Source of the DNA: Frankia sp. R82
GTDB lineage: Bacteria; Actinomycetota; Actinomycetes; Frankiales; Frankiaceae
NCBI RefSeq assembly: GCF_023716925.1
Contig: NZ_JAMQQG010000002.1
Location: forward strand, 1 to 64,000
Direction: 5' to 3'
Length of the DNA stretch: 64,000 nt
The notes beneath the pieces are model-generated. The model searched no databases. It was not told where the DNA came from and worked only from the letters and a program-made list of their open reading frames with translations. The position numbers and the translations under genes are program-made. Position 1 is the stretch's first letter. Each line of letters opens with the position of its first letter. Positions 20,723 to 36,998 of this stretch are shown one piece after another.

Positions 20723-22957
20723 TCAGGTATGCCACCAGTGTGGCAGGGCAGTGATTGACGTCCGCCCGGGCAGGGCAGGGCGGGAGGTCGAAACGCACCC
20801 TACCCGGATAGAGTCTTCAGCGAGGCGTTCCGGTCCGGATCGATCAGGAAGGCCCCGCTCCGCCCACCCGCCACGCCGCCCGCCCGCCGCACCACCCGGC
20901 CCGACCGCACCACCCGCCCGATGATCCACCAGCCCGACACCCCTACGATCCACCCGTAGGCCCCGGTACTCCAACGGCAGAGAGACGGTGCTCAAACCAC
21001 CGACAGTGTGGGTTCGAATCCCACCCGGGGTACGTACAGCATCTACGCGCCGTGGATGCCCAGTGGCTGCCGGGTGCGGCCCGGGGGCGGCGGCCGTCAC
21101 TCCCGCCAGATGGGCAACCTTGTCGAGGTCTGCCACCGGAATCTTGATCATCATGTGCACCTCCTGCCTTTCGTGATCGAGGTGGACGGTGAGCTGAGTG
21201 CTTTCGTAGAGGCGTCGCTGCAACGCTTCCGGCGCCTGGCGGAGCTTGAGGTGCAGCTCCGGCAGGGCGTCGAGGAGGGCGAGGCTGTCTTGGCCTGGCC
21301 GGTCGGGTTCGGTTTCGTCCGCCGCGTCGAGATCCTTGATCTTCCCGAGGGCGGTCTTACGCTCTGCGTCGAGCTGGTTGTAGCTACTGCGCAGTCCCTG
21401 GGTGAACGGGTCGTCGGGGTCGCCGTCCTGCGCCTGGCGGAGCAGGTTGCCCTGCCTGCGATCAAGCTCGTCGATCTTCTTCTGGAGTCGGCCTCGCTCG
21501 GCTGCTCGTTCCCGCTCGGCGCGGTCATCGTAGGTCGCGAGTTCGGCGTTCAGGAGGGCGATCCTGTCGCGCCCGAAGACGCGTTCGGCGTAGAAGTCGG
21601 CGATCGCGGCTTCAAGGACGTCTTCGCGGATACGGACGCTCTTGGGGTGTCCGACGAACTTGTCGTCACGGCCCCGGTTGTTCGCTCGGGGCCAGCACTT
21701 GTACCAGACAGGTGCGCTGGGATCGCGGACGGTTCCGAACATCCGCCGCCCGCAGGTGCAGTGGATCATGCCCCGGAACACGTAGGTCCGTTTGGTCGCG
21801 GGGTGGCGGTTGAGTTCGTTGTGCTCGCGGGAGCCGCGTCGGGTCTGCCGGTTGGCGTTGAACTCGTCGAACATCCACTTCGGGATCAAGGGTTCGTGGA
21901 CGGGTTCGGATGACCACACCCACTTCTCCGGCCCGTTGACCGCCCCATGCCGGGACCGGGTCGCCCGCCGGTTGAACACCTGATAGCCGGTGTATTTCGG
22001 GTTACGCAGCAGATCGGCCACCGTGGACTTCGACCATGCCCCTCGTGCCCGGCGGGCCCCACCGGGCGGCTCGGGTGGGGGGTAGCGCTCCAGGTCGGCG
22101 TTGAGCTGCTCGGCGATCTCGCCATAGCCAAGTTTGCGGTAGTAGCGCCAGTGCGCGATCTGCGTGACTGTCTCCCCGCGTGCCCCGTCGGGTTCGAGGC
22201 GGGTCTTGGTCGCCCCCCGGTCGGCTTTTATCGAGTTCGGGTGCCGGTAGCTCTTCGGCCGGTAGCCGTAGGGCGGTTTGCCGATGTTCCAGCCGTCGCG
22301 GACATGGGTGCACAGCCCACCCCAGCTACTTTCGAGGGTGTTCCAGACCTCGTACTCGGCGACCGACTGGTTGATCCGCCGTTGCAGGATCGCGGAGGCC
22401 CGCGGCCCGTCGACCTTGATCGGTTCGTTCCACGCCAGCAGCGCCACGCCGGCCTGTTCGAGCCGGCGTTCGATCGCGAGGTTCTCGTACATTCGCCGGG
22501 CGATCCGCGACATCGACTCGCAGATCACCGCATCGAACCGGCAGTTCGGATGATCCGCCTCGGCCAGCAGGTCGTCGATGCCACCGTCGCGGGGGATCGG
22601 GATGTCGAACCGGGACACGTCGGCCCCGTGGCCGCGCTGATCGAGTTCCTTGCGGCCCGACTCCACGTCGTAGAAGTGCGCGACGATCACCCACGACTCC
22701 GGCAGGGCGGACTTCGACCGGTCCAGCTGGCGGATCAACGACTGGCGGGGGTCCTGCTGCTCCTCGGTCGAGGTCCGCCCGGCGAACGCGACCCGGATCT
22801 CCCGATCCAACCCCGCCAGCGGCAACGCGAACGGCGACACCGCCAGATCCGACAACCCGCGCAGCGCCGGGTTCGCCGGATCCGCCGCCCGGCTCGCCGG
22901 CCCGGGTCCCGGACGGTCCCGCCCGGCCGTCCGGGACGGTCGGCCAGGATCGTTCAT
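20723..22957 (-). CDS. Large serine recombinase / integrase reading through the tRNA
   Basis: 744 residues as open. The resolvase domain begins near residue 54 with VAFAGRTSTEEQQDPRQSL, where Ser63 is the expected nucleophile. It continues with the FDAVICESMSRIARR helix, a recombinase domain (TVADLLRNPKYTGYQVFNRR), a zinc ribbon (GMIHCTCGRRMFG ... KCW) and a long coiled coil (about 485-560). The final roughly 100 residues are not normal protein: residues about 642-666 are the antisense translation of the tRNA at 20960-21032, and the rest is flanking chromosome. The native C-terminus was probably changed when the element inserted. ATG start with GAGGAGG; ATGA overlap with the small upstream gene. 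Confidence 0.93.
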   Translation of the reverse strand: MNDPGRPSRTAGRDRPGPGPASRAADPANPALRGLSDLAVSPFALPLAGLDREIRVAFAGRTSTEEQQDPRQSLIRQLDRSKSALPESWVIVAHFYDVESGRKELDQRGHGADVSRFDIPIPRDGGIDDLLAEADHPNCRFDAVICESMSRIARRMYENLAIERRLEQAGVALLAWNEPIKVDGPRASAILQRRINQSVAEYEVWNTLESSWGGLCTHVRDGWNIGKPPYGYRPKSYRHPNSIKADRGATKTRLEPDGARGETVTQIAHWRYYRKLGYGEIAEQLNADLERYPPPEPPGGARRARGAWSKSTVADLLRNPKYTGYQVFNRRATRSRHGAVNGPEKWVWSSEPVHEPLIPKWMFDEFNANRQTRRGSREHNELNRHPATKRTYVFRGMIHCTCGRRMFGTVRDPSAPVWYKCWPRANNRGRDDKFVGHPKSVRIREDVLEAAIADFYAERVFGRDRIALLNAELATYDDRAERERAAERGRLQKKIDELDRRQGNLLRQAQDGDPDDPFTQGLRSSYNQLDAERKTALGKIKDLDAADETEPDRPGQDSLALLDALPELHLKLRQAPEALQRRLYESTQLTVHLDHERQEVHMMIKIPVADLDKVAHLAGVTAAAPGPHPAATGHPRRVDAVRTPGGIRTHTVGGLSTVSLPLEYRGLRVDRRGVGLVDHRAGGAVGPGGAAGGRRGGWAERGLPDRSGPERLAEDSIRVGCVSTSRPALPGRTSITALPHWWHT
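20960..21032 (+). tRNA. tRNA-Leu(CAA), unusual short variable loop
   Basis: 73 nt fold into a complete cloverleaf: acceptor stem of seven pairs (G1-U72 wobble, others Watson-Crick), a 3-bp D stem with GG in its loop, a perfect 5-bp anticodon stem, loop CTCAAAC with T33 and anticodon CAA, a 5-nt variable loop, and a perfect 5-bp T stem with TTCGAAT. Position 73 is A; no CCA is encoded. Anticodon CAA decodes UUG (Leu), but bacterial leucine tRNAs normally carry a long variable arm, which is missing here. It serves as the likely insertion target of the adjacent recombinase element. Confidence 0.85.
21010..21040. other. Putative attachment-site (left junction) at the tRNA 3' end
   Basis: The tRNA is intact, and recombinase-element sequence starts at or near its 3' end, the usual place for tRNA-directed integration. 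The exact core cannot be set because no second copy of the tRNA 3' end was seen inside the window, so the right junction lies outside it or has diverged. Confidence 0.35.
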
Positions 22958-23340
22958 GCTGCCTCCTCATCTGATCCACTGTTGCCGGTGGCCTCGCCGG
23001 CGTCCCAGAGCAGCAGGTCCCGGATCGCGCCCACGAGCTCCGCCCGGAGCCGGGCGGCCCCCGGGCCACTGATCGTCTCGACCTCGCCGTGAAATACCCA
23101 CCGCCGGCCCGGCCGTCCCCGTCCGCCTTCCGAAGGGGCTCGCAGCGCGACGACTCCCGCGTCCTCCGCCTCCGTTTTCTCCCCCATTGACCCGTGGGGA
23201 TCTTCTGCGGCCGGGGCGCCGCCCGCAGCGGAGGGCTGCCCGATCTGGCCAGGGTGGCCAGGGTCGCGCTGGGCGATCGGCGGCCCGTCGCCGTCGGCGT
23301 CCGGGTTGTCGATGGGACCGGTGGGACGGGCAGCCGTCAT
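22954..23340 (-). CDS. Small protein co-transcribed with the recombinase
   Basis: About 128 residues; unrecognised. The N-terminal 60 residues are Pro/Gly/Asp-rich and the rest reads RWVFHGEVETISGPGAARLR, then ELVGAIRDLLLWDA, a short alpha/beta-like segment. The ATG at 23340 has TGGAGG six bases upstream and the stop overlaps the recombinase start (ATGA), so it is translated with the integrase and may help or control it. The same frame stays open to a GTG at 23778 that also has a good ribosome site (GGAAGGAGG), giving 274 residues; the added part is low-complexity and its third-codon-position GC falls, so I prefer the short form. Confidence 0.65.
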   Translation of the reverse strand: MTAARPTGPIDNPDADGDGPPIAQRDPGHPGQIGQPSAAGGAPAAEDPHGSMGEKTEAEDAGVVALRAPSEGGRGRPGRRWVFHGEVETISGPGAARLRAELVGAIRDLLLWDAGEATGNSGSDEEAA

Positions 23341-24691
23341 AGAGCCTCCAGGCGCCGAAGGAAAGGACCAGACAGAGGCAGAGGAGGCCAAGATCGGGCA
23401 GCCGCTCCCAGCAGGGCACGGGGCAGTATCCGGCTCATTGACAGAAACAGTAACACCCGGACGGGCCGGAAGGGAACCCGCGAAGCACGGAAAATACTCC
23501 GATCCGGGAATTGACCGCGGACACAGCACCGTCTGAGCTGGATGCGGATTCCCACCCGCCGGAGAGTTCGAGGAAGGTCCAGGAATAGAGCCGGGTCCGG
23601 ACCCGGACTCCTCCCCCGCCGCCGTGCCAGGGCGAGGCGGATCGGCGGGAACCGCCGGTGGTCCCGAGGGCGCGGGTGCGGGATGCGGTCCGTCTGGCTG
23701 CTGTGCTGCAGGGGTTACCGGACGCAGCGGGCGGGGAGAGCCGGGACGGTCGGGGTTCGTGTGGGCCTGGTCGGTCACGAGGCGGGCCTCCTTCCGTGCG
23801 GCGCGAAACGCCGCTATATAGGAATCCGGTTTTCAGGCCCACTTCGGACAGTTGATCTCCAAAGTTGTTGAAGAGTTGTCCGATGGGCGACGGAAGAGAA
23901 TTGGCTCGGAGGACCGCCGAAAAGCACCGCCCCCACTCCCCGACTAGTAGGAATGGGGCCCACCCACCGGACCGCCAGGATTAGAGATCAAAATATGGTC
24001 CGACGTGCGTCCACAGGGAAAAGTGGTGCCATTGACTAGTCCAATCGGATGATGATCGCCGAACAACGCGACAACCTCCATCGCGAAGATCACAAGCGCC
24101 CGTCGCCGTCGCTGGCAGCTCCGGCCCTCGGGGAGCGACCGACGAAGATCACCACGTCGCGCCATGGGCGACCATCGGCCCGGCCGGCAGGCGGATCGGG
24201 CCTCGCGCGGCCTGCCCGCGTGACGATCGAGACGGGTGCGCCGCCCCAGGAGTAGGGATGTTGGAAGCGACCGGCGGGAGCAGCCTCGGGAAGTCGCCAA
24301 CGCGGCGCGCGCTGCCTGGCGTCAGCCGTTCGCGCACACAAGGGAGATCGTTTCGCGGGCATGGCGGCCGTCCTTTCCGATGCCTCGGGATTCGGACGGG
24401 CCTAGCGCACCACACCGTGCCCAGCGAAAAGCCAGCACGATCTACCACATCCTGCCCAGCAAGATCGCTGGGCAGTCAACCGAGCACAGCCGACCCGTGC
24501 AGCCGCTCCCCACCCGTCCGGCCCGCAGCCGTACGCCGGCGGCAGGATCCGATCACCATCGGACCTCTGACCTGCAACGCTGTGATTCGCGAGCATGCAC
24601 AGGAGACCGCTGGGCACACCGTCAGCGGCCCTCCGTGGCAGGCTCCGCTGGCACCTGCAGAAACCGACCGGGCCTCAGAGCAGAGGTGGGA
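23341..24691. other. Long non-coding or unresolved stretch upstream of the recombinase operon
   Basis: About 1.35 kb. It includes a possible N-terminal extension of the small recombinase partner (GTG at 23778), a 16-bp palindrome CCGGGTCCGGACCCGG at 23591-23606, and an AT-richer patch near 23810-23900 that could hold the operon promoter. Frames between 23900 and 24690 lack ribosome sites and recognisable content. Confidence 0.4.
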
Positions 24692-25273
24692 TCACGCGGC
24701 CACGATCGTGGCCGCAAGGGCGACCCGGTGATCCTTCGCCCAGGGCAGCCCCAGCATTGCCCGTGGTCCGCGCAGCACCTCATCCGCGCGCTTGCCTAGG
24801 AGGCGGGCCGCCTCAGCCTCAACGGTTTTCGGGTCATAGAGATGGATCGCCCAGCCGCGGTTCCGCGCCACGTCGGCCAGCACCTGCCGGTACATGATGG
24901 CGTCGGCACGGCTCTCGTACGGGACGCGTCGTTGTACGGCGATGTCGGCCGGGAAGCCAGCCGGCCAGGTCCGCAGCGAGAGCGAGCTGATCGGTGCGGA
25001 CAACACTGCGGCCAGCTCCTCGAAGGCCGCCGAAGCGGCCCGGACCACGCAGGCACGGACATCGGCCACCAGCGCCGCGAGTTCGGTGTCGCTGAGCCGC
25101 TCCCCCGACCGGTGGAGCTGGTGAGGACCGCCGGCATGGTGGATCGGCGCCACTGGCAGGCCTGGTTCGATCAGCTCGATCCGCCGGCGGTCCACGACCC
25201 GATGATCCCCCGTCGCCGTGACAGCTACGGCCCAGCCGAAATGATCAGCGGTGCCCAGACGCATGGCAGCCAT
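24692..25273 (-). CDS. Hypothetical protein, nuclease-like or RNase H-like in outline
   Basis: About 193 residues; family not recognised. It begins MRLGTADHFGWAVAVTAT, continues RVVDRRRIELIEPGLPVAP, then a helical middle region, SLSLRTWPAGFPADIAVQRR, and RNRGWAIHLYDPKTVEAEAA. An early DHFGWAVAV strand followed by a VVDRRRIEL strand resembles an RNase H-like ribonuclease/transposase fold, but this is only an impression. The GTG/ATG choice is ATG 25273, with GGTGG upstream; a second ATG follows three codons later. Codon use has the strong third-position GC of a real gene. It stands alone between two non-coding stretches. Confidence 0.7.
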   Translation of the reverse strand: MAAMRLGTADHFGWAVAVTATGDHRVVDRRRIELIEPGLPVAPIHHAGGPHQLHRSGERLSDTELAALVADVRACVVRAASAAFEELAAVLSAPISSLSLRTWPAGFPADIAVQRRVPYESRADAIMYRQVLADVARNRGWAIHLYDPKTVEAEAARLLGKRADEVLRGPRAMLGLPWAKDHRVALAATIVAA

Positions 25274-25481
25274 GGTGCCACCATGAGCGGGAACAGCCGC
25301 AGCGACCTCGAAGACGCCAGATAGGCAGATCTGGGCTCCGGCGCGTTCGGAGTCCGACCGTTCCCCCTGAGACGCGCCGACCGGCCGACCCGGTCCGACG
25401 ATCGCCCGTCTATCCATGAAACAGGGCAAGGATCACCCCGACCGTCCGCAAGGGCACGAACCCGCCCATTCCCAAGGTCCG

Positions 25482-25503
25482 GGTCCGGGTCCGGACCCGG
25501 ACC
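25482..25503. repeat. 22-bp perfect palindrome of GGTCCGGGTCC
   Basis: GGTCCGGGTCC is directly followed by its reverse complement. A shorter version of the same core, CCGGGTCCGGACCCGG, occurs at 23591-23606, 1.9 kb away. Confidence 0.75.
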
Positions 25504-26144
25504 GGGTCCGGTCGGCGATCCGACCGAGCTCCGCCCGCCAGCGGACGGAACCGACCAAGACCATCGGGAACGGCCCGCCCGGCACGACAGGTAACGCTCA
25601 GAGCCGGCAGGTTCAGCAAGGCCGGCGAGGCGAAAGCGCGGGTCGCCGCCAGCGAGGCCAGCTCGGACCAGCAGAACCCGGGCGTTCAGAACATCGCGCG
25701 CAGCCAGCGGGAGCCCACGCGGTGCCAACGCGTCGCCACTCCGCGCATCCGGCGGAATGGGCGGGCAGGTAGGTGGACGGGCGGGCATGTCGGCAGGCAG
25801 GTGGGTGGGTAGGGGGATGGGCTCGCTGCAGCCGGCGAGAACAGCGCGGACACAGGACCGGCAGATGAAGACCGGTATCGGCACAGGTAGGCAGGCCCCA
25901 CGGGGACGAGACCAATTCGGGTCGGCGAGACCGGCCCGGCGCCGCTCGGTGCCGAGCCGCAGGCGGACAGGCCAGAGACCGCGGGGACGGGCAGGGACTC
26001 GGCGAGGCCCGTAGGACCTGATGAGACCAGCACGAGCCGTTGAGGCCGGTCCGACCAGCGAAGCCGCCAGAAGCAGCAAGGACGGCGAGTCACGCGACCA
26101 AGGCCCAACACACGAGCGGGGACCGGCAGAACTGGCACTATGGC

Positions 26145-26198
26145 GAGGCCACCGAGGCCACCGAGGCCACCGAGGCCACCGAGGCCACCGAGGCCACC
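26145..26198. repeat. 9-bp tandem repeat, six copies of GAGGCCACC
   Basis: Six perfect head-to-tail copies lie in non-coding DNA, just before the terminator hairpin. There are no spacers, so this is a microsatellite-like array and not a CRISPR. Confidence 0.92.
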
Positions 26199-26225
26199 GA
26201 GGGGATTGAGGGGATTGAACAGGAA

Positions 26226-26256
26226 GGAGCCTCCGAGCATGACGCTCGGAGGCTCC
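26226..26256 (-). terminator. Strong hairpin terminator, 13-bp perfect stem
   Basis: GGAGCCTCCGAGC, a five-base loop ATGAC and the exact reverse complement form a 13-bp stem 20 bases after the stop codon of the minus-strand gene ending at 26276. There is no long T-run, as is common in high-GC actinobacteria. Confidence 0.8.
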
Positions 26257-26275
26257 GTTGGGGGTAGCGGCTGTG

Positions 26276-27085
26276 TCAGTCGTCGGCGGTAAGACGCTTC
26301 CTCGCCTGGTCACGGTGGGTCAGTTCGTCGCGGATCGCGTCACAACGTTCGGTGAGTTCGCGCGCTTCCGCGTGGGCAGCGTCCCGGACTTTGATCACGG
26401 AGCGACGTGATCCGTACTTGCCGCCGTAGGTCTGTTGGGCGACGGTCGCGAACATGCCGGTGCGTCCAAGGTCATCGTCCTGGTTCGCCACGTCCATGAC
26501 CTTCTGCAGGGTCGGGAACTCACGTCCGTCTCCCCACGCCGCATCGAAGATCACTTCCGACATGGCCGCGAGGAAGGTAGACGCGGCCAGATGCTTCGCC
26601 TGCTGCTCCGCCACGTCCGGCGTGGCCGCTTCTGGCTTGCCGGGACGGTAACCGTTACGCTTGGCAGCGTCCCCAACGGCCCACTGGCGGATCAGGGCAC
26701 GGTCCACGAGGAACATCTCTCCGTTCCTCGGCTGGTACCGCCACTGGTCGGGTTCACGGGTGGCCACGTCGACCGAGGCGACCACACACCCACGAATGAT
26801 CATTCCGAACCGGCGGGCGAAGATCAGGACTGCGTCCTGGGCGATGTCGTCGGACACATCGTCACTGCCGTAGATCCCGCGTCCGTCCCGGGCGATCGTG
26901 GCCGAGCGGTCAGCGCGCTTGCGGGACCGGGCCGAGTCCGCCTTCCAGCAGTACCGGTGCGCGTGCTCGACGATCGCGACCCAGTCCGCTTCGGTGACCC
27001 GCGCCATGTCCTCCGCCGTGACCGCCTCGGCAACAACGGAAGGAATGTCCCGAGAGAAGAACGAGGAAATGAAGGAATTCGACAT
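26276..27085 (-). CDS. Hypothetical accessory-region protein
   Basis: 269 residues; function unknown. It is hydrophilic and helical. The segment GSDDVSDDIAQDAVLIFARR (residues about 75-95) faintly recalls sigma-factor region 2, but no region 4 helix-turn-helix follows, so I do not assign it. The second half contains AEQQAKHLAASTFLAAMSEV, and the C-terminus is strongly charged (RELTERCDAIRDELTHRDQA), probably a coiled coil. The ATG at 27085 has GGAG six bases upstream. It is a single-gene unit with an AT-rich leader (27086-27340) and a clean terminator. Confidence 0.75.
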   Translation of the reverse strand: MSNSFISSFFSRDIPSVVAEAVTAEDMARVTEADWVAIVEHAHRYCWKADSARSRKRADRSATIARDGRGIYGSDDVSDDIAQDAVLIFARRFGMIIRGCVVASVDVATREPDQWRYQPRNGEMFLVDRALIRQWAVGDAAKRNGYRPGKPEAATPDVAEQQAKHLAASTFLAAMSEVIFDAAWGDGREFPTLQKVMDVANQDDDLGRTGMFATVAQQTYGGKYGSRRSVIKVRDAAHAEARELTERCDAIRDELTHRDQARKRLTADD

Positions 27086-27816
27086 GGAAGACTCCACACA
27101 AGAAGGGGGTTTAGCGCCGCACGCCGGACGCAACGCGCCGATAACCAATAATCCCTCCCACTCCAGCGGAAATCAATACCCCGAGACAGCCTTTCTTGGA
27201 TTCTCCGAAGATTTCCCCGACAACGTTCCTGCAGGTCGGAGGCCCCTTTAAATCGCGACACAGAAAAAGAAAATGGAAGAGCTAACCCCGACGGTCAGCG
27301 TCAAAGAAACAACAAATACAGGGGAGGTGAAATGCGAATGATTTCGATGGATTGAGGCTGCCCAGAAAAGGGGCTCTATGGCCGGCTCGCGGGCCACTCT
27401 CCGTCACCTTCCCGCCGCCGTCCCGACTATCTCCCGGTACCCGGGGGGTACCAGTCGGGCTGTTCTTGGGCGGTGCCAGCAGGACGCCGACCTGCACGAG
27501 TCCTCGACGGCAGAGTAGCTCATCAAATGGGAGACCGGGATGCGTACCGGATGGGCTACCGGACGGGCTCTCCGATGGGCGTGTAGCGATCGGGGGTAGA
27601 TGGCCACCCGTCGTGATGGTTGACCAGTAGATGGTCAACAGCCGGGATAGTTGGCCAGCCTGCGGAAGCGCCGGGAGATGCCGGTAGCAGGCCGACGAAG
27701 GAGTTGACCTCAAGCGGACTTGAACTCTTAGCCTGACCGTCGCAGGGTCGAGCGGTCTTATCGGCCCCACACCTTGTCAACGACGGCCGTTCGGCGCAGG
27801 AGCACTGAGGAGCACC
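27086..27816. other. Intergenic region with AT-richer leader
   Basis: About 730 bp. The part from 27140 to 27350 is AT-rich for this genome and probably carries the promoter of the minus-strand gene starting at 27085. Frames at 27282-27770 (minus) and 27352-27630 (plus) have no ribosome site and no recognisable content. Confidence 0.45.
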
Positions 27817-28236
27817 GTGCCTCATCTGAGGGACATCACCGACCGAGCAGAACTTGCCGCCCTGGTCGGTCAGCTTGGGCGCTGGCTGGACACCGGCGAC
27901 GACAAGGAGGGGCGCGCGATCTTCCACGAGGACGCCATCATCCACAGCGCTCGCGGCGGCGCCACGGGGATCGACGACATACTCGACTATTCGCGGCGCA
28001 CCAGCGACGACAACGAGAACTCTCAGCATCTGATCACCGACGTGCTCGTCGAGCTTGACGGGGACCGCGCCACTATGACGGCGAATGAGCTTGTCGCGTA
28101 CTTCCCGTCGAGACAGGTCTTTCCCCCGCTCTTGAGGCTCGTCGGCCTGCGTTTCGCGTTCCAGGCGCTCCGCGCCCAAGACGGGTGGCGGCTCACCCGC
28201 GTTGAGGTCACACCGCTCTGGCGGCAGGAGGCTTGA
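27817..28236 (+). CDS. SnoaL-like / NTF2-fold protein
   Basis: 139 residues. The pattern ITDRAELAALVGQLGRWLDT, IFHEDAIIHSARGG, LVELDGDRATMTANELVAYF and a final GWRLTRVEVTPLWR matches the cone-shaped NTF2-like fold of SnoaL_4-type proteins. These include ring-closing cyclases, dehydratases and many uncharacterised small-molecule enzymes. The GTG at 27817 follows GAGGAGC. It stands alone, so no pathway can be inferred. Confidence 0.85.
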   Translation: MPHLRDITDRAELAALVGQLGRWLDTGDDKEGRAIFHEDAIIHSARGGATGIDDILDYSRRTSDDNENSQHLITDVLVELDGDRATMTANELVAYFPSRQVFPPLLRLVGLRFAFQALRAQDGWRLTRVEVTPLWRQEA

Positions 28237-28422
28237 CCGCGCTCCCGATCAGACCCGTCCGCCTGGCCGGGTTCACGGCCTCCGACGTCCGCGGGCACGC
28301 TCATGGGCCAATCGCCGCGTTGGCCAACAACGGCCGCGTCCGGCGGCGCTGGCACTGGCCAACAACCGCGGCATGCCAGCTCGGAGGAGACGGATCTACC
28401 GGCGGGCCGCCGCTGTAGTTGG

Positions 28423-28779
28423 TCAGGAGCTGGCGTGCCGATCCGGCCTACTTGGCGAGGTTCGCTGGTCACGGTCTCGCAGCGCTCCTGCTGCGCAGTC
28501 TGCTGGCGTGCCAGCGATCGCCAGCTGGGGCAGCGGTTGTCCGGCTGTTCCGCTGGCGCTTGCGCCCGCGGCGTCCTCGGGCTCCCAGCGCAGCAGGTCG
28601 CCCGGCTGGCAGTCGAGCACCTCGCAGAGCGCGGCGAGGGTCGCGAAGCGCACCGCCCTGGCGCGGCCGTTCTTGAGTACCGCCAGGTTGGCGGGAGTGA
28701 TCCCCACGCGGTCCGCGAGCTCGCCCACGGACATCTTCCGCCTGGCCAGCATCACGTCGATGTCGACGGCGATCGGCAT
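28423..28779 (-). CDS. XRE-type (YozG-like) HTH regulator partner of DUF2975
   Basis: 118 residues. The first 65 residues are a compact helix-turn-helix: MLARRKMSVGELADRVGITP, then ANLAVLKNGRARAVRFATLA and LCEVLDCQPGDLLRW, the HTH_26/YozG pattern. The rest is an Ala/Gly-rich tail of about 45 residues. The ATG overlaps the stop of the DUF2975 gene by one base (TGATG), the usual arrangement of this pair. It probably represses its own operon; two inverted repeats just upstream of the operon are the likely operators. Confidence 0.9.
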   Translation of the reverse strand: MPIAVDIDVMLARRKMSVGELADRVGITPANLAVLKNGRARAVRFATLAALCEVLDCQPGDLLRWEPEDAAGASASGTAGQPLPQLAIAGTPADCAAGALRDRDQRTSPSRPDRHASS

Positions 28780-29270
28780 CAGATCACCTCGTCCAGCTCG
28801 GCCTGCAACTGCGACGCCTCGACATCACGAGCAACGGCCTGGGCAAGCAGCATCCGCAGCACGAGCACGAGGAGCGCGACCCCCAGGACGGCCAAGCCGA
28901 CCCCGCCCATGATGACGGTGACGCCCGGGTCGTCCCGCTGACCCGGCGCATTGAGAACCGTGACCGCGAACCACACGAGGGCAGCCGCCACGATCGCACC
29001 GATCACGACGTCCACGTACCGGAAGGCGGCGCGGGAGAACACCGTTCCGCGCCGCACCATCGTCACCAGCCGCCCCACACAGAGCAGCACAACCTGGACC
29101 GACACCATGCCCAGGATCGTGATCACGCGCAGCGGGGTCAGCGGGAGCGACCCGTCCTCCGGGTCGCTCCCGCTGACCAACGCCCACACCATCCCCGCCT
29201 GTACGAACACGGTGCCTGCGAGCACCACCACGAGCACAGCGCGCAGCGCCCCCACCGTCAGCCGTCCCAT
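28779..29270 (-). CDS. DUF2975 family membrane protein
   Basis: 163 residues with four membrane helices: LRAVLVVVLAGTVFVQAGMV, VITILGMVSVQVVLLCVG, VVIGAIVAAALVWFAVTVL and MGGVGLAVLGVALLVLVLRM. The linker VTMVRRGTVFSRAAFRYV between helices two and three is the DUF2975 signature. Members are paired with a small XRE regulator, as here, but their role is unknown. The ATG at 29270 follows GGAAGG at eight bases; an in-frame GTG lies one codon upstream. Confidence 0.9.
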   Translation of the reverse strand: MGRLTVGALRAVLVVVLAGTVFVQAGMVWALVSGSDPEDGSLPLTPLRVITILGMVSVQVVLLCVGRLVTMVRRGTVFSRAAFRYVDVVIGAIVAAALVWFAVTVLNAPGQRDDPGVTVIMGGVGLAVLGVALLVLVLRMLLAQAVARDVEASQLQAELDEVI

Positions 29271-29281
29271 GACCCATCCTT

Positions 29282-29298
29282 CCATCGATTCACGATGG
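29282..29298. promoter_or_regulatory. Inverted repeat CCATCG-5-CGATGG upstream of DUF2975 operon
   Basis: A perfect 6-bp inverted repeat with a 5-bp spacer lies 12 bases before the DUF2975 start codon, next to a second palindrome, consistent with autoregulation by the operon's XRE protein. Confidence 0.45.
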
Positions 29299-29302
29299 GA
29301 AT

Positions 29303-29319
29303 CTATCGAATATCGATAG
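29303..29319. promoter_or_regulatory. Inverted repeat CTATCGA-3-TCGATAG, probable operator
   Basis: A perfect 7-bp inverted repeat with a 3-bp spacer lies 33 bases before the DUF2975 start in an AT-richer spot. It is the best candidate operator and promoter core for the DUF2975/XRE operon. Confidence 0.55.
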
Positions 29320-29511
29320 GCCAGGCAAAGGCTGGGACGGAGGGCAGACGACGGTTTCGCGCCGCAGCGAGACGCCGCCACCCTGTCTCCCCGCGCTTGC
29401 GGCGGCCAGCTCTCGGCCCGGGGGAGGGAGAACGCGGCACACTCATGGCAGCGCCCGGTGGCGCGACATCCGATCAGCCGTTCGTGACCTCAGCGACCCG
29501 CACCCGGTCCG

Positions 29512-29532
29512 TCGTGGTGGTGGTGGTGGTGG
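29512..29532. repeat. GTG triplet repeat, seven copies
   Basis: Seven uninterrupted GTG triplets sit 31 bases downstream of the methyltransferase stop codon (minus strand), in non-coding DNA. Confidence 0.85.
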
Positions 29533-29563
29533 TGTGCCGACCAGTCGATGCCGCAGAACACCT

Positions 29564-30469
29564 TTACCCGCGGCCGAGTTCGGCGGTGAGGAAGCGCGTG
29601 TCGAGCCAGGGCCGGGTGGTCTGTCCGGTGAACGGGTCGGTCAGGTCGCGGCCGTAACGGTCGGCGATCTCGGTGTCGTCGTCCTCGCGGACGGTCCAGC
29701 CGTTCGGGTACAGCCACTGGGCCGGGTGCGGACGGGGCTCGGTGTTGAACAGCGATCGCGCCTCGATACCGGACCGGCGGCTGAGCTGCTCCAGCGTCGC
29801 GGTGTCGGAGGCCAGACGGTCCAGGTCCGCGAAGCGGTCCAGCGCGAGGCGGCTGCCGACGGCGGACAGCTGGTGGATCTTTCGCAGCAGGTGTTCCTCG
29901 GCGGTGGCAGGAAGGTAGCCGAGCAGACCCTCCGCAACCCACACGGTCGGCACCGTCGGGAGAAACCCTGCCGCGGTGAGCGCGCCCACCCAGTCCTCGC
30001 GCAGGTCGGTGCCGACCGCGACACGCCGGCAGCCAGGCGCAGTCCGGCTGCCGCGCAGCACGTCGTTCTTGAAGGCGAGCACCCCCGGCTGGTCCAGTTC
30101 GTAGAGGGTGACGTCGGACGGCCAGGGCAGTCTGAACGCCCGCGTGTCCAGGCCCGCGGCAAGCAGAACGACCTGGCCAGCTCCGTCGCGGACCGCGTCC
30201 AGGATGACGTCGTCGTAGAACCGCGAGCGCACGCCGATGAAGCGGGAGGTATGTAGGGACAGTCTGTGCTGGTCACTCACCGGTTCACCCTCGGCGGGCC
30301 AGCGCAGTGGGAACGGAACCGGCGAGTCCACCGCGCCCAGGAACACGGCCCCGAACGGGTCGTCGATGAGCGCGTCGGGCATCGACGACTCCACGCTCCG
30401 AGATGCGGCTATACCGAGGGCCGTGATGCCGGGACCGGTGACAATGTCCCAGGTCCGCTGCTCTGCCAT
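29564..30469 (-). CDS. SAM-dependent methyltransferase, LCM/TIGR00027 family
   Basis: 301 residues. The N-terminus has the family helix region ALGIAASRSVESSMPDALID, the motif FYDDVILDAV, and the SAM-binding motif VVLLAAGLDTRAFRLPWP. It continues with LYELDQPGVLAFKNDVL and VWVAEGLLGYLPATAEEHLL, all typical of actinobacterial leucine-carboxyl-methyltransferase-like enzymes, which methylate small molecules or polyketides. The ATG at 30469 follows GAAGGGAA at eight bases. A perfect 9-bp inverted repeat about 50 bp upstream may control it. The substrate is unknown. Confidence 0.94.
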   Translation of the reverse strand: MAEQRTWDIVTGPGITALGIAASRSVESSMPDALIDDPFGAVFLGAVDSPVPFPLRWPAEGEPVSDQHRLSLHTSRFIGVRSRFYDDVILDAVRDGAGQVVLLAAGLDTRAFRLPWPSDVTLYELDQPGVLAFKNDVLRGSRTAPGCRRVAVGTDLREDWVGALTAAGFLPTVPTVWVAEGLLGYLPATAEEHLLRKIHQLSAVGSRLALDRFADLDRLASDTATLEQLSRRSGIEARSLFNTEPRPHPAQWLYPNGWTVREDDDTEIADRYGRDLTDPFTGQTTRPWLDTRFLTAELGRG

Positions 30470-30516
30470 GCCGTGTTTCCCTTCACTGTGGGGAGCCAAC
30501 AGGAGGCTGGCCGTGA

Positions 30517-30538
30517 CCTGGGATGATCCCATCCCAGG
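30517..30538. promoter_or_regulatory. Inverted repeat CCTGGGATG-4-CATCCCAGG, possible operator
   Basis: A perfect 9-bp inverted repeat with a 4-bp spacer lies 48 bp upstream of the LCM-type methyltransferase start, in its promoter region. Confidence 0.55.
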
Positions 30539-30658
30539 CCTGGGACCCACCTCCACTGGCCGCCGACCACCACGGCCCCGAACTCCTTCCTGGGCGGACG
30601 CCGTCGACAGGACCAAGCGATAGCGGCCACCAGGACCCGACCCAGCAAAGGGCTTTGG

Positions 30659-31690
30659 TCATCCGCCCCCGGTGATCAACGCGGGAATGGAGATCACCTC
30701 GACCTGGACCGTCGAGACCGTGGTCAGGCCCTCGAACGCTCCGGTCTGACCGGCGCCGGCCCAGGTCACATTCCAGGTCACTGTGGCGGTCACGGGGAAC
30801 GTCCCGCCCGGCTGATCTTCCGACACATGCTGGTAGGTGTGGCCGCAGTCCGGCGATGACGCCTTCGGATCAGCATCGGCGCGGTACGGGGTGCCCGGCC
30901 CGGCACAGCGAACCTCGGAGCCGTCACCCATCGTCCACACCACGCCGACAGGCATGGCCGTGGCGGTGACGGAGACGCCGCCGGCGGCGGCCGTCGCGGA
31001 GGCCGGATTCCAGCCGGCCGGATCCAGCCACATCCACGTCGGCAGGCGGATCAACTGCCGGCCCGTCGGACTCAGCCCAATCGCCGGCCCCCGCAGATGC
31101 AACTGGTTCCGGGCCTGCTCCGCGAGCGCCACTGGATCCGGGGCAGCATCGGCCGGCCCTCCCTGCCCATCTGCGATCCACACCGGAGGTCGATACAGCG
31201 CGTCTCGCACGCCCTGGGTCTGGCACTGGTATACGTACCAGGCCCCGGGCTGCCCGTCCGGAACGGTCGCGGCCAGCTGCACACGGAGACCTCCGGGGTG
31301 GCCCAGTGCGGTCACGATGCGTGGGCCGTCACGGTGCGGCACGGTCTGGAACAGCACCGGCTGGGTCGCGTCGGAGGGCGGCTGGAAGGCGCTGCGTACG
31401 TAGGAGCAGCGGGCGAGTTCTGATGGATCGAGCGAGGTGTCACCCGGCGGACGGGTGCGCCTACCGCCGTCTGGCGATGGAGTGCCGCGGTCGGGCGCCT
31501 GCGGCGTTTCCTGGCGGGGCGGGGCGGCGGGCTCCGCTCCCTGGCCCGCGCCAAGCTCACATCCAGGATGCGGGTTCTGCGCGCACGTCGTGAACGCGTA
31601 AGGATCCCGCGCGAGCGCCGGAACCGCGGACACGGCTACCAGAGCCAGGGATGTCGCGGCCACGGCCGCCGAACGCCATGACCTCAGCAT
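30659..31690 (-). CDS. Secreted protein of an integrative-element transfer region
   Basis: 343 residues. A signal peptide runs from MLRSWRSAAVAATSLALVAV to PALA, and the mature part starts with a Pro/Gly-rich linker. The rest carries VWIADGQGGPADAAPDPVAL, LIRLPTWMWLDPAGWNPASA, a PKD-like stretch VVWTMGDGSEVRCAGPGTPY, and HTYQHVSEDQPGGTFPVTAT. Proteins of this type are found beside small lipoproteins and type IV-like transfer ATPases in actinomycete conjugative elements; this is from memory of the family. The ATG at 31690 lies inside the end of the upstream lipoprotein gene (7-bp overlap). The transfer ATPase genes are not adjacent here. Confidence 0.85.
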   Translation of the reverse strand: MLRSWRSAAVAATSLALVAVSAVPALARDPYAFTTCAQNPHPGCELGAGQGAEPAAPPRQETPQAPDRGTPSPDGGRRTRPPGDTSLDPSELARCSYVRSAFQPPSDATQPVLFQTVPHRDGPRIVTALGHPGGLRVQLAATVPDGQPGAWYVYQCQTQGVRDALYRPPVWIADGQGGPADAAPDPVALAEQARNQLHLRGPAIGLSPTGRQLIRLPTWMWLDPAGWNPASATAAAGGVSVTATAMPVGVVWTMGDGSEVRCAGPGTPYRADADPKASSPDCGHTYQHVSEDQPGGTFPVTATVTWNVTWAGAGQTGAFEGLTTVSTVQVEVISIPALITGGG

Positions 31691-32149
31691 GATCCGAGGC
31701 CTTCGACCGCGAACCGGGTGACCTTCCACGACCCGTCCTGGTGGAGACGCACCTCGGAGGTCACCGCCCGCCGACCGCCCGGTTCGTCGTCGACCAGGCT
31801 GCCGTCAGTGCGGTACTGACAGGCTGCCGGACAGCACCTGCAGGGCCGAGCCCGAGGCGTAGCGCCCCAGCTCCGGAGACTGCCAGTTCGAGGTCTGGCT
31901 GGCTTCCGCCATCGCGTTCCACAAGCTGACGTAGGCATCGATCGCTTGCCGCTCGGCGTCGGCCGCGGCCGACGCCGGTGTTGGGGATGGCGCTGGTGTG
32001 CTGGACGGCGTCGGGGGTGGAGGCGGCGCGGAATCGCCATCGGAGCCGCAGCCCGTGACGGCAGCCACCAGTGCGACGGCCGCCAAGCCACTGATTATGA
32101 TCGTCCGGCCTGGTCGGTTCTGATACCGAGAGCTGTTGCGACCTTCCAT
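31684..32149 (-). pseudogene. Broken lipoprotein gene (internal deletion with frameshift)
   Basis: The ATG at 32149 (GAGGTGG upstream) begins a lipoprotein: IIISGLAAVALVAAVTGCGS with lipobox VTGC, a Pro/Thr linker, then a helical region ending RYASGSALQVLSGSLSVPH and a stop near 31805. A second frame overlaps the break and continues CQYRTDGSLVDDEPGGRRAV to WKVTRFAVEGLGSC, ending at 31684 just inside the next gene. The two frames read as the first and last parts of one protein. Compared with the family, about 40 central residues seem missing at the junction, so a deletion that also shifts frame is the simplest explanation. A sequencing error alone would not explain the missing part. Confidence 0.7.
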
Positions 32150-32866
32150 CGCGTCCACCTCGCGCGGTCGTGGCGTCGGCCCGTGGCACAGCGACTGCGG
32201 ACCGTCTCTACCCATACGTACCGCACGATGTCGGACTCGTCTCGTTCTAACTTTGGAGTCGGAACGGCCGGCCAGCATGATTTGACACTTTCAGCCCATT
32301 TTGACCCGATGACAGATAGACCGTACGGGCCATTCACGTAGACCAAATGAACTAGGCGACTGCTGGCACGTGGCGAACTTGGGGCGGCCCTTCGGGGAGT
32401 TAACCAGTGCAGCGGCTGCGAGAAGCGGAGCGGGCTGGGACCAAGGCCGCCGTACCGGGAAGCAGCCTCCGGACCCGAGGGCGAAGTTGAACCGGCACGA
32501 CGGCCGCATCGTGCACGCACCGAGCCGGGTGTCGGCTGGGCTCGTTAAGTCTCGGAATGCCGCCTCGATGCTGTCGGATGCGACGACCGCAGGAGGAGAC
32601 GGGCCCTCCGACTGCGTCTCATTGTCCAGGAAAATGCTAGCTCGACCGTTTCCTGATGGCCAGGATCACGCGCCGGCATCCATGACGGCAATCCGACACG
32701 CCGAAAACCATGGATTCGGGCCGACATACACTCCCGATCAGCCGCTTGCGCCACCAGATCATCGACAGCACCCCGATCGAATGAGCCTAGTGCGCCATCA
32801 AGATAAGCAATGTCAAATCATTTTAATGATCAATCTTTAGTGGTTCCTAAAGAGGAAGGGATGTAG
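32150..32866. other. Intergenic region with falling GC
   Basis: About 715 bp. GC content drops towards 32866, ending in the AT-rich leader of the next gene. A plus-strand frame at 32370-32840 lacks a ribosome site and looks random. No gene supported. Confidence 0.5.
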
Positions 32867-33574
32867 TTGAGAACATATTCAGTAGGATCAGGCCACCCTA
32901 GGCCGACAACCCACGCCGCCCTTATCGCAGTCTTGGTCATGGGACTGACGGCTGTCACCCTCTTCGTGACCCCCGGTGTCGCGAGGGCCGACGAGGAAAC
33001 TGTCTGCGGCTACCGGACCTACGATCCCGATCGGGATGGTCTCAACCTCGGCAGCTTTCTCGGCGACGGCCAGGGACGCGTCAACGATAAAATTCGACGG
33101 TTCTTCGGGTGGGACGACTGGACTTGCGCTCCGCTCAGGGATGCAGCCGAGATAGGTGCCGCGCAGATCGTCGGAAATCCCTACACAAAGATCATAAAAT
33201 TCCGCGTTAAACTTCCCCGAGAAGTACAGTTCTTCCTTTTCGTAAGGAAGGTTGTGGAGCACAGCGGCCAGGCCGAACCATCTCCCGCTGAGCTTCCCGC
33301 AGTCGGACCTTCCGTCATCCAGGCGCCAGTATCGTGGACCGGCGGCGCCGGCCTGTGGCTGAACAGCGGACCTGGGAGCGGAAAACTCCTAGTTGTGATA
33401 CCCGAGCAGACGATGCTGACCATCGGTTGCCAGGTACGCGGTCCAGCGGTTACCGGCCCGTACGGTAGAACTGATCTATGGGACTACGTCACCACCCCTG
33501 ACGGCCACCAAGGCTTCGCAAGCGATGCATTCATCTTCACGAATACCTCCGATCAGGTAGCGCCAGCTTGCTAA
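32867..33574 (+). CDS. Secreted protein with C-terminal SH3-like domain
   Basis: 235 residues. A signal peptide (THAALIAVLVMGLTAVTLFV, cleavage likely after ARA) is followed by an unrecognised middle region with several Cys (VCGYRTYDPDRDG, WDDWTCAPLRDA). The C-terminal 75 residues, GAGLWLNSGPGSGKLLVVIP to GHQGFASDAFIF, resemble a bacterial SH3 domain, often a cell-wall binder. The start is TTG at 32867 with GAGGAAGGG six bases upstream; an ATG six bases earlier is followed at once by a stop. GC content and codon use are lower than in neighbours, a sign of recent transfer. Confidence 0.85.
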   Translation: MRTYSVGSGHPRPTTHAALIAVLVMGLTAVTLFVTPGVARADEETVCGYRTYDPDRDGLNLGSFLGDGQGRVNDKIRRFFGWDDWTCAPLRDAAEIGAAQIVGNPYTKIIKFRVKLPREVQFFLFVRKVVEHSGQAEPSPAELPAVGPSVIQAPVSWTGGAGLWLNSGPGSGKLLVVIPEQTMLTIGCQVRGPAVTGPYGRTDLWDYVTTPDGHQGFASDAFIFTNTSDQVAPAC

Positions 33575-33865
33575 GCCTGACGGCGAGCGGTGGGGCCGGG
33601 GCCGATCGGGCCAGGAGGCTAGGGAACAGCGGACTCTAGCTCCGATCCTGTTCGCGCCCCGGATTCACCAGCAGCGACTGCGTGCTGGACCTCCCCGCGT
33701 CCAGCCTGAATTCGATACGTAAACCGTCGCCGCCGACCTCAATCAGCTGCTTGGCCAACCAGCCCAGTCACCTCATCATCGGCGTCAGAACAGACGCGTA
33801 GCCCATCGAGGTCCCCAGCCCCCGCCGACAGCTCAGCCAGTTGCCCTGGCCGAAGCGGCACCATG

Positions 33866-34366
33866 TCAGCTGAAGGCCGGGGATGACGCGTCCGCACAGG
33901 CGGGATCGCAGCCACTCACTCTATCTGCAAGCCGCAGGCGCAAGTGGCCGACACTACTGCTCCGCATCGAGTCGATCACCAGCCTGTCTGCGGGCCGGAG
34001 GCAGGCGCGGTCGTGGACGTCGAGCAGGCTGTGCACGTCTGTCCCGTAGGTGGCTGCGAGCAGCGCGAGAACCTGCGGGGTGAGCCGCCGCCGTTCGGCC
34101 GGGTGGGGCCAGTGCTCCAGCTCACAGAGGTGGGGACCGGTCATAGTCGCTCTGCCGTCGGTATCGATGTCCAGGATGGCCGCGTGATCGTTGATGTGCT
34201 CCGCAGCGCGGAGGAGCGTCCATCCGTGGGCGTGGCGGAACGCTGCGCGGGGACGGAAGCGGTAGCGGCGGATGAACTCTCCCGCGATCTCCGCGGATGT
34301 TGACCCCGCGTCCAGCATGCGATCGCGTAGATCCTTCTGTTCCGCCTTCAGGCTGGCTTTCCTCAT
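33866..34366 (-). CDS. Short HTH protein, paralogue of the regulator N-terminus at 41730
   Basis: 166 residues. The first 130 residues match the N-terminus of the large regulator at 41730-43427 almost motif by motif: EIAGEFIRRYRFRPRAAFRH, GWTLLRAAEHIN, DGRATMTGPHLCELEHWP and VLALLAATYGTDVHSLLDV. This is an XRE-like DNA-binding domain of actinobacterial regulators. The C-terminal ligand/TPR part is absent, leaving a 30-residue tail. The ATG at 34366 has GGGAGGG seven bases upstream. It is either a truncated copy or a stand-alone DNA-binding form that could compete with the full-length regulator. Confidence 0.85.
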   Translation of the reverse strand: MRKASLKAEQKDLRDRMLDAGSTSAEIAGEFIRRYRFRPRAAFRHAHGWTLLRAAEHINDHAAILDIDTDGRATMTGPHLCELEHWPHPAERRRLTPQVLALLAATYGTDVHSLLDVHDRACLRPADRLVIDSMRSSSVGHLRLRLADRVSGCDPACADASSPAFS

Positions 34367-34380
34367 GGCCGCCCTCCCGG

Positions 34381-34986
34381 TCAGGTCCTGACACTGATGC
34401 GGTGCGCGACAGATTCGGGTGGACGGGGGCGGTGCCAGCGGTCCAGTCCGCGCAGCGCATCGGCGACCCGCCGCAGGGTTTCCGGGTCGGTGCGGTAGGC
34501 GATCGGCTCCGTGGGCTCCGGCCCGACGGTCGGTGTTCGGGTCGGCATCGCTGTAACCATGGCCGCTGGCTCCGGCACCAGGCCGCTAGAGATCTCCGCC
34601 CACACGACCTTGCCCTGGGTCTTGGCGCGGTACCACGACCATCGGCTGCTCAGCGCGCCGACCATGAGCAGGCCCCGGCCGTCCTCGCTGTCGGTGTCCG
34701 GGTCGGTGATGCGGGGGCCGGCGTCGTTGCTGTCCCACACCTCGATCAGGATGCTTCCGCTGGTCGCGGTGAGCCGTATGGCCATGACGTCGTCCGGGTG
34801 GCTCGCCTTCGCGGCGTTCGAGGCCAGCTCGCAGACGACGACCTCAGCGACGCTGACGGCGTCCGGGTCCACGGACCACGTGGTGAGCATGTGCACGGTG
34901 CTCCTGCGCACCCTGGGGACAGCGGCGGTCGTGGACGGGAAGTGCGCCACCGCCACCCGGATCGCGGAGGAGGCGCCCCCGGTCAT
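34381..34986 (-). CDS. RsbW-like ATP-binding protein (HATPase_c_2)
   Basis: 201 residues. The core has the GHKL ATPase N-box VVVCELASNAAKASHPDDVM, the G1-like box LIEVWDSNDAGPRI and the G2-like box EDGRGLLMVGALSSRWSWY, as in anti-sigma/regulatory kinases of streptomycetes. The C-terminal 60 residues are Pro/Glu/Arg-rich. It lies 14 bases upstream of the short HTH gene in the same direction. The gene group (ATPase, HTH, DUF397, XRE-DUF5753) resembles the whiJ/abaA-type regulatory clusters known in Streptomyces. Confidence 0.9.
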   Translation of the reverse strand: MTGGASSAIRVAVAHFPSTTAAVPRVRRSTVHMLTTWSVDPDAVSVAEVVVCELASNAAKASHPDDVMAIRLTATSGSILIEVWDSNDAGPRITDPDTDSEDGRGLLMVGALSSRWSWYRAKTQGKVVWAEISSGLVPEPAAMVTAMPTRTPTVGPEPTEPIAYRTDPETLRRVADALRGLDRWHRPRPPESVAHRISVRT

Positions 34987-35035
34987 GCCGATCCCCGCGC
35001 AGCACTGCGCGTGCGGCGACTGGTGATCGTGGCGC

Positions 35036-35329
35036 TCATCCGCGTGTGGGTCGCGCGGGCAGGCAATGCGACGAGTCCCCCACGCCCTGGGCCAGGCTGG
35101 ACAGGTCGCAGCCCGGGAGAACGGCGAACTCTACCCACGCGACCAGCTCGCAGCGCGCCTGCGACAGACGGCGGCTGACCTTCGCCACCCGGTCATCCAC
35201 GGTCAGGGGAAGGCGGGTCAGCGCCTGCCGCAGGCGCCGGTGCGCCCACTCGTGGGCGGTGTCAAAGTTGCCGAACGCGCCCAGCGGCCGTCCCTCCGCG
35301 TCCCACACCACGTACCGGTGTTCCTCCAT
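35036..35329 (-). CDS. Small hypothetical protein
   Basis: 97 residues; not recognised. It begins EEHRYVVWDAEGRPLGAFGN, then FDTAHEWAHRRLRQALTRLP and ARCELVAWVEFAVLPGCD. A strand-helix-strand pattern suggests a small alpha/beta fold. ATG at 35329 with GGGGGCAGGG nearby. It precedes the RsbW-like gene by about 50 bp and is divergent from the XRE-DUF5753 gene; the shared promoter region holds an inverted repeat at 35453-35469. Confidence 0.7.
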   Translation of the reverse strand: MEEHRYVVWDAEGRPLGAFGNFDTAHEWAHRRLRQALTRLPLTVDDRVAKVSRRLSQARCELVAWVEFAVLPGCDLSSLAQGVGDSSHCLPARPTRG

Positions 35330-35452
35330 GGCCCTGCCCCCTTGCCGACCGGAAACGATCTCCTGGCGTGCCCTTCGTTCCGCACCCCAGCGCCGTCATG
35401 GGCGGCGCTGGGGTACTGGCAGAATGCACCCGCGGAACTCTCATACGCAAGT

Positions 35453-35469
35453 ACGTATGGCAGATACGT
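35453..35469. promoter_or_regulatory. Inverted repeat ACGTAT-5-ATACGT in a divergent promoter region
   Basis: A perfect 6-bp inverted repeat with a 5-bp spacer (GGCAG) lies 63 bp upstream of the XRE-DUF5753 gene and 124 bp from the divergent small gene. A related GTAT...ATAC palindrome occurs at 52982-53002. Confidence 0.55.
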
Positions 35470-35531
35470 GAGTCAGCGTTGATCGGCCCGAGACAGGGGC
35501 TGGCAGACTGCTACCGGGAGAAGGGAGGGCG

Positions 35532-36401
35532 ATGCCGAGCACACCAGGCCCTACCGTGCGGCGCCGGCGCCTGGGCGCGGAGCTGCGCCGCCTACGGGAG
35601 GCCAAGGAACTGACCGTCGACCAGGCCGGGGAACACATCCACCGCAGCGGGCCGACGATCAGCCGGATGGAGACCGGCCAGTTCCGGTTCGTCCTACGTA
35701 ACGTCTCGGACCTGCTCGACCTCTACGGCGTCACCGACGCCGAGCAGCGCCAAGCCCTGCTGGCGCTGGTGAAAGAGAACCGCAGGCCCGCCTGGTGGCA
35801 CTCCTACGGCGATCTCGTACCCCGCTGGTTCCAGGTCTACATCGGCCTGGAAGCCGAGGCCTCCACGATCACGACCTTCGAGAGCCTGCTCGTCCCCGGC
35901 CTGCTCCAGACCGAGGACTACGCCCGCGCGGTCATCCGCGCCGCCTCACCGGAGCTGCCCGCCCACGAGGTCGACCGGGCCGTGGAAGTCCGGATGAACC
36001 GGCAGAAGATCCTCACCGGAGACCAGCCCGTGCAGCTGTGGGCGATCCTCGACGAGGCCGTGATCCGCCGGCACGTCGGAAGCCCCACCGTCATGACCCG
36101 GCAGCTGGACCGGCTGATCGAGGCGGCGGAGCAACCCGCGGTGACGATCCAGGTCGTGCCGTTCACCGCGGGCGCCCACGCCGGCATGATCGCAAGCTTC
36201 ACGATCCTGGGCTTCCCTGACACCGGCGGAGCTTCCGAGACGGTCTACATCGAAGCTCCCACGGGCAGCCTCTACCTGGAGAAACAGGCCGAGGTCCGAC
36301 GCTACGAAGCCTGGATGAACCAGCTCCGCAGCTCCGCCCTCGCACCCACCCCCAACACCCTCTCGATCATCAAAGCGGCACGTGAGGACCTACAGCGATG
36401 A
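35532..36401 (+). CDS. XRE-family regulator with DUF5753 domain
   Basis: 289 residues. The N-terminal HTH reads RLGAELRRLREAKELTVDQA, then HIHRSGPTISRMETGQFRF. The C-terminal DUF5753 domain has EAEASTITTFESLLVPGLLQ, TEDYARAVIRAASPEL and VEVRMNRQKILTGDQPVQLW. These regulators usually pair with a DUF397 protein, as here (ATGA overlap), and take part in development or antibiotic control in Streptomyces (WhiJ-like). ATG at 35532 with GGGAGAAGGGAGGGCG directly upstream. Confidence 0.95.
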   Translation: MPSTPGPTVRRRRLGAELRRLREAKELTVDQAGEHIHRSGPTISRMETGQFRFVLRNVSDLLDLYGVTDAEQRQALLALVKENRRPAWWHSYGDLVPRWFQVYIGLEAEASTITTFESLLVPGLLQTEDYARAVIRAASPELPAHEVDRAVEVRMNRQKILTGDQPVQLWAILDEAVIRRHVGSPTVMTRQLDRLIEAAEQPAVTIQVVPFTAGAHAGMIASFTILGFPDTGGASETVYIEAPTGSLYLEKQAEVRRYEAWMNQLRSSALAPTPNTLSIIKAAREDLQR

Positions 36402-36610
36402 CCACCCACGGTGCGGACGCCCCACTGAACTGGCGCAAGAGCAGCTACTCCGGCGGCACCGGCGGCAACTGCGTCGAGGTCGCCACTCTCCCCGACGGCG
36501 GCCGAGCCGTCCGCGACTCCAAGAACCCAGACGGACCGGCCCTGCACTTCACACCCGCCGAATGGGCCGCCTTCCTCGCCGGCGCACAGGACGGCGAGTT
36601 CGACCAATAG
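36398..36610 (+). CDS. DUF397 family small protein
   Basis: 70 residues. The signature LNWRKSSYSGGTGGNCVEVA followed by RDSKNPDGPALHFTPAEWAA is diagnostic of DUF397. Overlaps the XRE-DUF5753 stop by ATGA, so it is co-translated and probably acts as the partner or antagonist of that regulator. Confidence 0.96.
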   Translation: MTTHGADAPLNWRKSSYSGGTGGNCVEVATLPDGGRAVRDSKNPDGPALHFTPAEWAAFLAGAQDGEFDQ

Positions 36611-36998
36611 CGCAGACGCAGTTGTGTTCCTGGGCTCCGAACGCCTGCGCGGGTCCCTCGATCGTGTCGTGGGGACGGAGTCGAGGCCCCGCTGCCCCAG
36701 GGGGTGGGGCCGGCCAAGGGTCGCTCATAGACCATTGGCTGACCTCGACGTTTACCTCTCGCCGGGCGTCTCCGGGTCGATCCAACGATAGATCCGACTG
36801 GCTGTTCAGCGCGCTGGCGAAATCGGGAAGGAAGGCATCGGGCCGGTCAGTGGCCAGCCGCCAGCGGATTGCTACGGCTTCCTCGATCGCGACCACCGCG
36901 TCCTTCCGCCGGACTACCGGACCGAGCCAAGGGTCGCTCATCACCACAGGCCGAGCTGGACAGTTCCGAATAGCAATCAAGGAGAGATCGTGATCGCG
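36611..36998. other. Intergenic remnant of a TPR unit flanked by direct repeats
   Basis: On the minus strand at about 36778-36902 the translation DAVVAIEEAVAIRWRLATDR then PDAFLPDFASALNS copies one TPR unit of the neighbouring trypsin-STAND-TPR gene, in the same reading frame but beyond that gene's stop codon. Identical 16-bp copies of GCCAAGGGTCGCTCAT at 36713-36728 and 36926-36941 bracket the fragment. Confidence 0.7.

Follow-up and report, generated by a model that had tools for sequence, protein, structure and literature searches.

The window analysed here comprises the 64,000 nucleotides at positions 1-64000 of contig C222 of the Frankia genome under study (G000). On its minus strand, an open reading frame of 744 aa (20723..22957), which starts at an ATG with an AGGAGG-like ribosome site in front, encodes a protein with Pfam matches above cut-offs to Resolvase (PF00239), Recombinase (PF07508), and Zn_ribbon_recom (PF13408). 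Catalytic domain, Recombinase domain, and zinc ribbon are thus all present, which places the protein among the large serine recombinases. The plus strand carries, across the end of this frame, a tRNA-Leu(CAA) gene of 74 nt (20960..21033; ARAGORN, and Rfam RF00005 at 49.5 bits) that is found with its upstream flank in 35 of 35 searched genomes of the Frankia family. Recombinase residues ~642-666 are the antisense of the tRNA ('..RTPGGIRTHTVGGLSTVSLPLEYRGL..'), and the frame remains open on to 20723. This agrees with the original prediction of a recombinase frame that passes through the tRNA into the chromosome. Two tRNA-Leu genes of this genome, CAA (74 nt) and TAA (76 nt; G000:C3:14600-14674), are without the long variable arm, and TAG, CAG, and GAG are normal, at 83-86 nt; short tRNA-Leu genes also occur in some Lentzea.

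Residues 1-645 of the recombinase are encoded by the integrated element and are common to the integrated and the predicted excised forms. The remaining 99 aa, residues 646-744 (20723..21023, minus strand), are specific to the integrated form and derive from tRNA antisense and then from the chromosome. Stop-free runs of at least 97 codons arise with a chance of 33% from random points on the minus strand of the window and of 21% in a Markov model, so that the length of the read-through alone is unremarkable; read-through of this length is ordinary in GC-rich DNA, and the integrated tail is not conserved. Overall confidence is low in a structure model of the integrated form (mean pLDDT 58.7, pTM 0.33), with pLDDT <50 throughout residues 610-744, which are predicted to be disordered, and with long helices near the zinc ribbon (479-510 and 517-549) that are subject to the same low confidence. 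As modelled, the catalytic, DNA-binding, and predicted coiled-coil parts all precede the junction. A PDB sequence search gave no recombinase among its matches. The start of the recombinase gene is overlapped (ATGA) by an ORF at 22954-23778 that has no Pfam match and lies in DNA kept in related elements; it is possibly a partner or directionality factor of the recombinase.

The element (21024..64000, on to contig position 64697; 43,674 bp in total, by attL/attR mapping) carries two backbone genes near its other end. The first, an spdB/DUF2637-like membrane-protein gene, occupies 63592..64000 of the window on the minus strand and starts at contig position 64562; its DUF2637 match is weak (Pfam E 0.32, in a homologue). 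In G000 this gene is frame-shifted after about codon 38, through either decay or a draft-assembly error, and it is intact in several relatives. The second encodes a replication-relaxation protein (62380..63432, minus strand; Pfam Replic_Relax, 7e-44), and the same gene order is found in a related element (G031) of 11,902 bp. A Pfam scan of 21 of the element's ORFs found neither an FtsK/TraB-type transfer gene nor a RepSA/Prim-Pol replication gene, only Replic_Relax and a weak match to TrbL_3. The cargo includes a class I lanthipeptide-type cluster at 45338-52257 (LanB-like dehydratase, Lant_dehydr_C protein, LanC-like cyclase, and PCMT-type methyltransferase) and, at 36999-40103, a STAND NTPase-like protein whose tetratricopeptide repeats correspond to 138-bp tandem DNA repeats (37091-37942).

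Element ends and the reconstructed attP

Comparison with sites that lack the element located attL and attR of the G000 element and gave a common core of 10 bp, CCCGGGGTAC, at 21024..21033 (no strand) and again at contig 64698-64707. A search for the right end by direct repeats within the window found none, because the core is only 10 bp long and attR sits 0.7 kb past the window end. The rejoined G000 flanks align across the junction with the uninterrupted sites of two related genomes (G010 and G005), so that the search for empty sites proposed earlier was successful; the downstream sequence of a CCA-type site in another genome (G009) had no match in G000. Both ends and an empty site were likewise mapped for an element at tRNA-Arg(CCG) in G028, by comparison with G033, which has no insert. 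There, attR (GATGATGCTGTCCGAGCCTCC-CCGGGGGCAC-C) is ~69 kb away, a span that may include more than one insertion, and the same type of attR signature recurs in G000 at the right-end core.

We joined the two element ends in silico; the attP, the circle, and the 689-aa protein described below are all products of this joining, and the circle itself was not observed. The joined G000 attP reads GATGCTGTAC-GAGCCTCCCCCGGGGTAC-GTACAGCATC, a perfect 10-bp inverted repeat centered on CC. Its element-side arm, GTACAGCATC, lies at 21034..21043 and is also found in other elements, and its partner, GATGCTGTAC, lies at the right end (contig ~64680). Within the 10 bp identical to the tRNA, the central CC takes the first two positions, and from the center of the inverted repeat we infer that these two bases of the attL core are the crossover point; in that case the tRNA gene would owe its last eight bases to the element. 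The sequence of the attP core varies with the target tRNA among the elements.

The recombinase frame is open across the joined attP. It diverges from the integrated form after Gly645 and reaches a stop 44 codons later, giving a predicted excised form of 689 aa in total with the tail EARTASTRNQAKASLVVSARIPAPITPSDGSRPAAARALTGGGA (then stop), so that in the joined sequence attP falls inside the recombinase coding sequence, 44 codons upstream of its stop. This part of the gene occupies contig 64562-64697, and its stop overlaps the start of the membrane-protein gene (TGATG). The frame is unbroken across attP in all seven Frankia elements whose two ends were joined. Closed plasmid and phage records gave no free circular form, only distant recombinases. 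One Lentzea locus (L244) was considered as an uninterrupted gene across the core and rejected, since only 336 codons are open, and it is regarded as a joined remnant.

Conservation of the native tail

The original prediction held that integration would swap the last ~100 residues of the recombinase. The swap itself is supported, with 99 aa specific to the integrated form, but the predicted excised tail is 44 residues and not ~100. The coding stretch after the core measures exactly 44 codons in all 11 right ends found, which come from 11 genomes in three genera of the Frankia family, and the stop/start overlap is TGATG in 10 of them and TGATC in the other (G016). In the recombinase frame, the tail has a dN/dS of 0.39, and frames whose third codon positions differ from those of the tail gave 1.1-1.7. 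One antisense frame has the same third positions, and its low value of 0.46 is expected from codon mirroring. For the seven elements whose two ends are both known, dN/dS was 0.34 for the tail, 0.32 for the coding linker before attP, and 0.18 for the body of the recombinase, and so the constraint on the tail is similar to that on the linker and looser than that on the body. This pattern indicates that the tail is under selection as protein. Integrated tails were dropped as a dN/dS control, since they do not align.

The integrated tails have a different character. Homologues with 64-90% identity adjoin tRNA-Leu(CAA), Arg(CCT), and Arg(CCG), and a more distant one (38%) lies at tRNA-Arg(ACG); in most, the motif GTACAGCATCCACGCG follows the tRNA directly and opens the element. 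The register in which the frame crosses into the tRNA antisense is constant and yields 'RVDAVR(A/T)PG', followed by residues that depend on the target. Counted from DAV, tail length is 23 aa for Arg(CCG), with the stop still within the tRNA, 37-120 aa for Leu(CAA), and 103-167 aa for Arg(CCT); tails of the three sites are mutually unrelated and not conserved between sites. The conserved native tail and the unrelated integrated tails together make the C-terminal swap well supported. In Frankia canadensis (L045 / L191), a 96% identical recombinase fragment passes the att core into tRNA-free DNA (..RVDAVRTPRGATFEP.., then stop), which may be an off-target or a rearranged site of integration. Another family of serine recombinases adjoins tRNA-Leu(GAG) in most Frankia-family genomes (loci L053-L060 and L289-L318); the site is occupied in nearly every genome of the Frankia family, and several ORFs of this family end inside the tRNA antisense.

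A genome scan outside Frankia found 39 loci in Lentzea, Saccharothrix, Kibdelosporangium, Saccharomonospora, Streptomyces, and others, many of which also read into antisense tRNA (Leu, Arg, and Glu tRNAs). Tails of a related type adjoin spdB-like genes in Pseudonocardiales (MLVIEGSFLVDDPGGGA, KLVLESSFVVDEPRGGR, and RLVVEGRFEVDAPGGGF, each followed by a stop), with a TGATG or ATGA overlap. The tail motif of Kibdelosporangium and Prauserella lies out of frame with the recombinase, and relatives of 592-615 aa finish where the core domain ends, lacking both a tail and a neighboring tRNA.

Possible meanings of the C-terminal exchange

We consider it quite probable that the element carries attP inside its own recombinase gene, that the joined gene of the circle is selected, and that the antisense-tRNA tail is a by-product. 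The 3' end of the tRNA is the target, and integration parts residues 1-645 from the 44 native codons. In the excised circle, the 689-residue recombinase would be made, and its translation, probably together with transcription, would continue into the membrane-protein and replication genes. Upon integration, the recombinase would pick up whatever tail the tRNA antisense and the chromosome happen to encode, and the genes downstream would lose their leader and become uncoupled from it. As selection would keep the joined gene of the circle, the C-terminus seen in the integrated copy would follow as a by-product. Best supported by the sequences is that attP lies inside the recombinase gene and that excision would restore both the native tail and the coupling to the membrane-protein gene; coupling and expression of the downstream gene are predicted from the gene arrangement. 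Counted against this explanation are that the circle is a reconstruction only, that the spdB-like gene is frame-shifted in G000, that the motif is out of frame in Kibdelosporangium and Prauserella, that tail-less relatives exist, and that dN/dS is also low in the antisense frame with the third positions of the tail.

Less probably, the recombinase may sense its own state through its reading frame. The tail present only in the circle would then tune the activity or lifetime of the enzyme and couple the membrane gene to it, and integration, at any tRNA, would exchange the tail and so put both the enzyme and the downstream genes into a resting state.

A further proposal, made in the original prediction, is a switch against re-excision, in which the foreign tail would inactivate the enzyme or alter its activity on attL × attR and the element would stay locked in unless released by another recombinase or a directionality factor. 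The tail does differ between the integrated and the reconstructed excised states, and for excision the self-splitting integrases of Archaea are believed to require an intact enzyme of other origin (PMC8371274). Nevertheless, all known domains of large serine recombinases precede the junction, the integrated tails vary by target and come in every length, and some relatives do without a tail, so we consider such a switch unlikely.

Somewhat less probable still is a leader peptide, in which a separate ORF, made up of all 44 codons or of the final ~28 starting at a GTG, is coupled to the spdB-like gene and the in-frame join is incidental. A GTG at codon 16 or 17 in 11/11 tails fits this arrangement, as does the tail-like motif out of the recombinase frame in the two genera named above. 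However, the ribosome site before the GTG is not consistent among the tails, codons 1-15 are also kept as protein (though partly under att constraint), and the join across attP is in frame in 7/7 Frankia elements. The least probable reading, that attP lies by mere geometry at the 3' end of the gene and that neither tail matters functionally, draws on the 21-33% chance of a 97-codon read-through and on the other recombinase families at tRNA-Leu(GAG) and tRNA-Leu(CAA) that also end inside tRNA antisense, but it covers the integrated tail only and leaves the 44 codons under purifying selection and the TGATG at the other end unexplained.

Comparison with known systems

AICEs integrate into tRNA 3' ends in Frankia, where tyrosine integrases have been reported, and in some mycobacterial AICEs integration at a tRNA-Leu gene relies on a serine recombinase; the same 2011 actinobacterial survey called serine-recombinase integration into tRNA genes rare (PMC3218068). 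The element described here resembles AICEs in that its own recombinase integrates at a tRNA 3' end (attL/attR at tRNA-Leu(CAA)); an FtsK-like transfer gene, which typical AICEs have, was not found among the 21 of its ORFs that were scanned. The transfer genes of Tn916 are expressed only after circularization, through a link by transcription (PMC11658703). Here, too, the circle joint would place genes behind the promoter or gene of the other end, with expression predicted mainly after excision, but the predicted link is an ORF across the joint with a TGATG overlap.

In mycobacteriophage BPs, attP also lies in a coding frame, and the integrated and free proteins differ in their C-termini (PMC4557955). 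The gene involved in this integration-dependent immunity encodes the repressor, and the tail lost on integration is an ssrA-like degradation tag (PMC4557955), whereas attP here lies in the recombinase gene and no ssrA-like tag is recognized in the tail.

A similar gene layout is known from the archaeal "suicidal" (SSV-type) integrases, which have attP in their own recombinase gene and are split upon integration (PMC8371274); self-disrupting recombinases were called exclusive to Archaea in a 2021 review (PMC8371274). A search of the open-access literature turned up no bacterial serine recombinase described as having attP in its own reading frame, which is weak evidence of novelty. If the preferred explanation is true, the Frankia element would be a bacterial parallel, built on a serine recombinase, to the self-splitting integrases of Archaea, and a natural example of an integrase edited by integration itself. 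It would explain why annotated recombinases can show odd C-termini read from antisense tRNA. When integrases for genome engineering are mined from integrated elements, their C-terminus may be the wrong one, in which case the natural one should be rebuilt from attR. The SSV-type integrases are tyrosine recombinases (Phage_integr_3) that are divided into an int(N) and an int(C) part, the latter carrying the catalytic portion (PMC8371274). The Frankia enzyme, in contrast, is a serine recombinase that loses only its 44-residue tail and keeps all known domains; as reconstructed from the element ends, it works similarly to the archaeal suicidal integrases, but with serine recombinase domains only it is not a member of that group.
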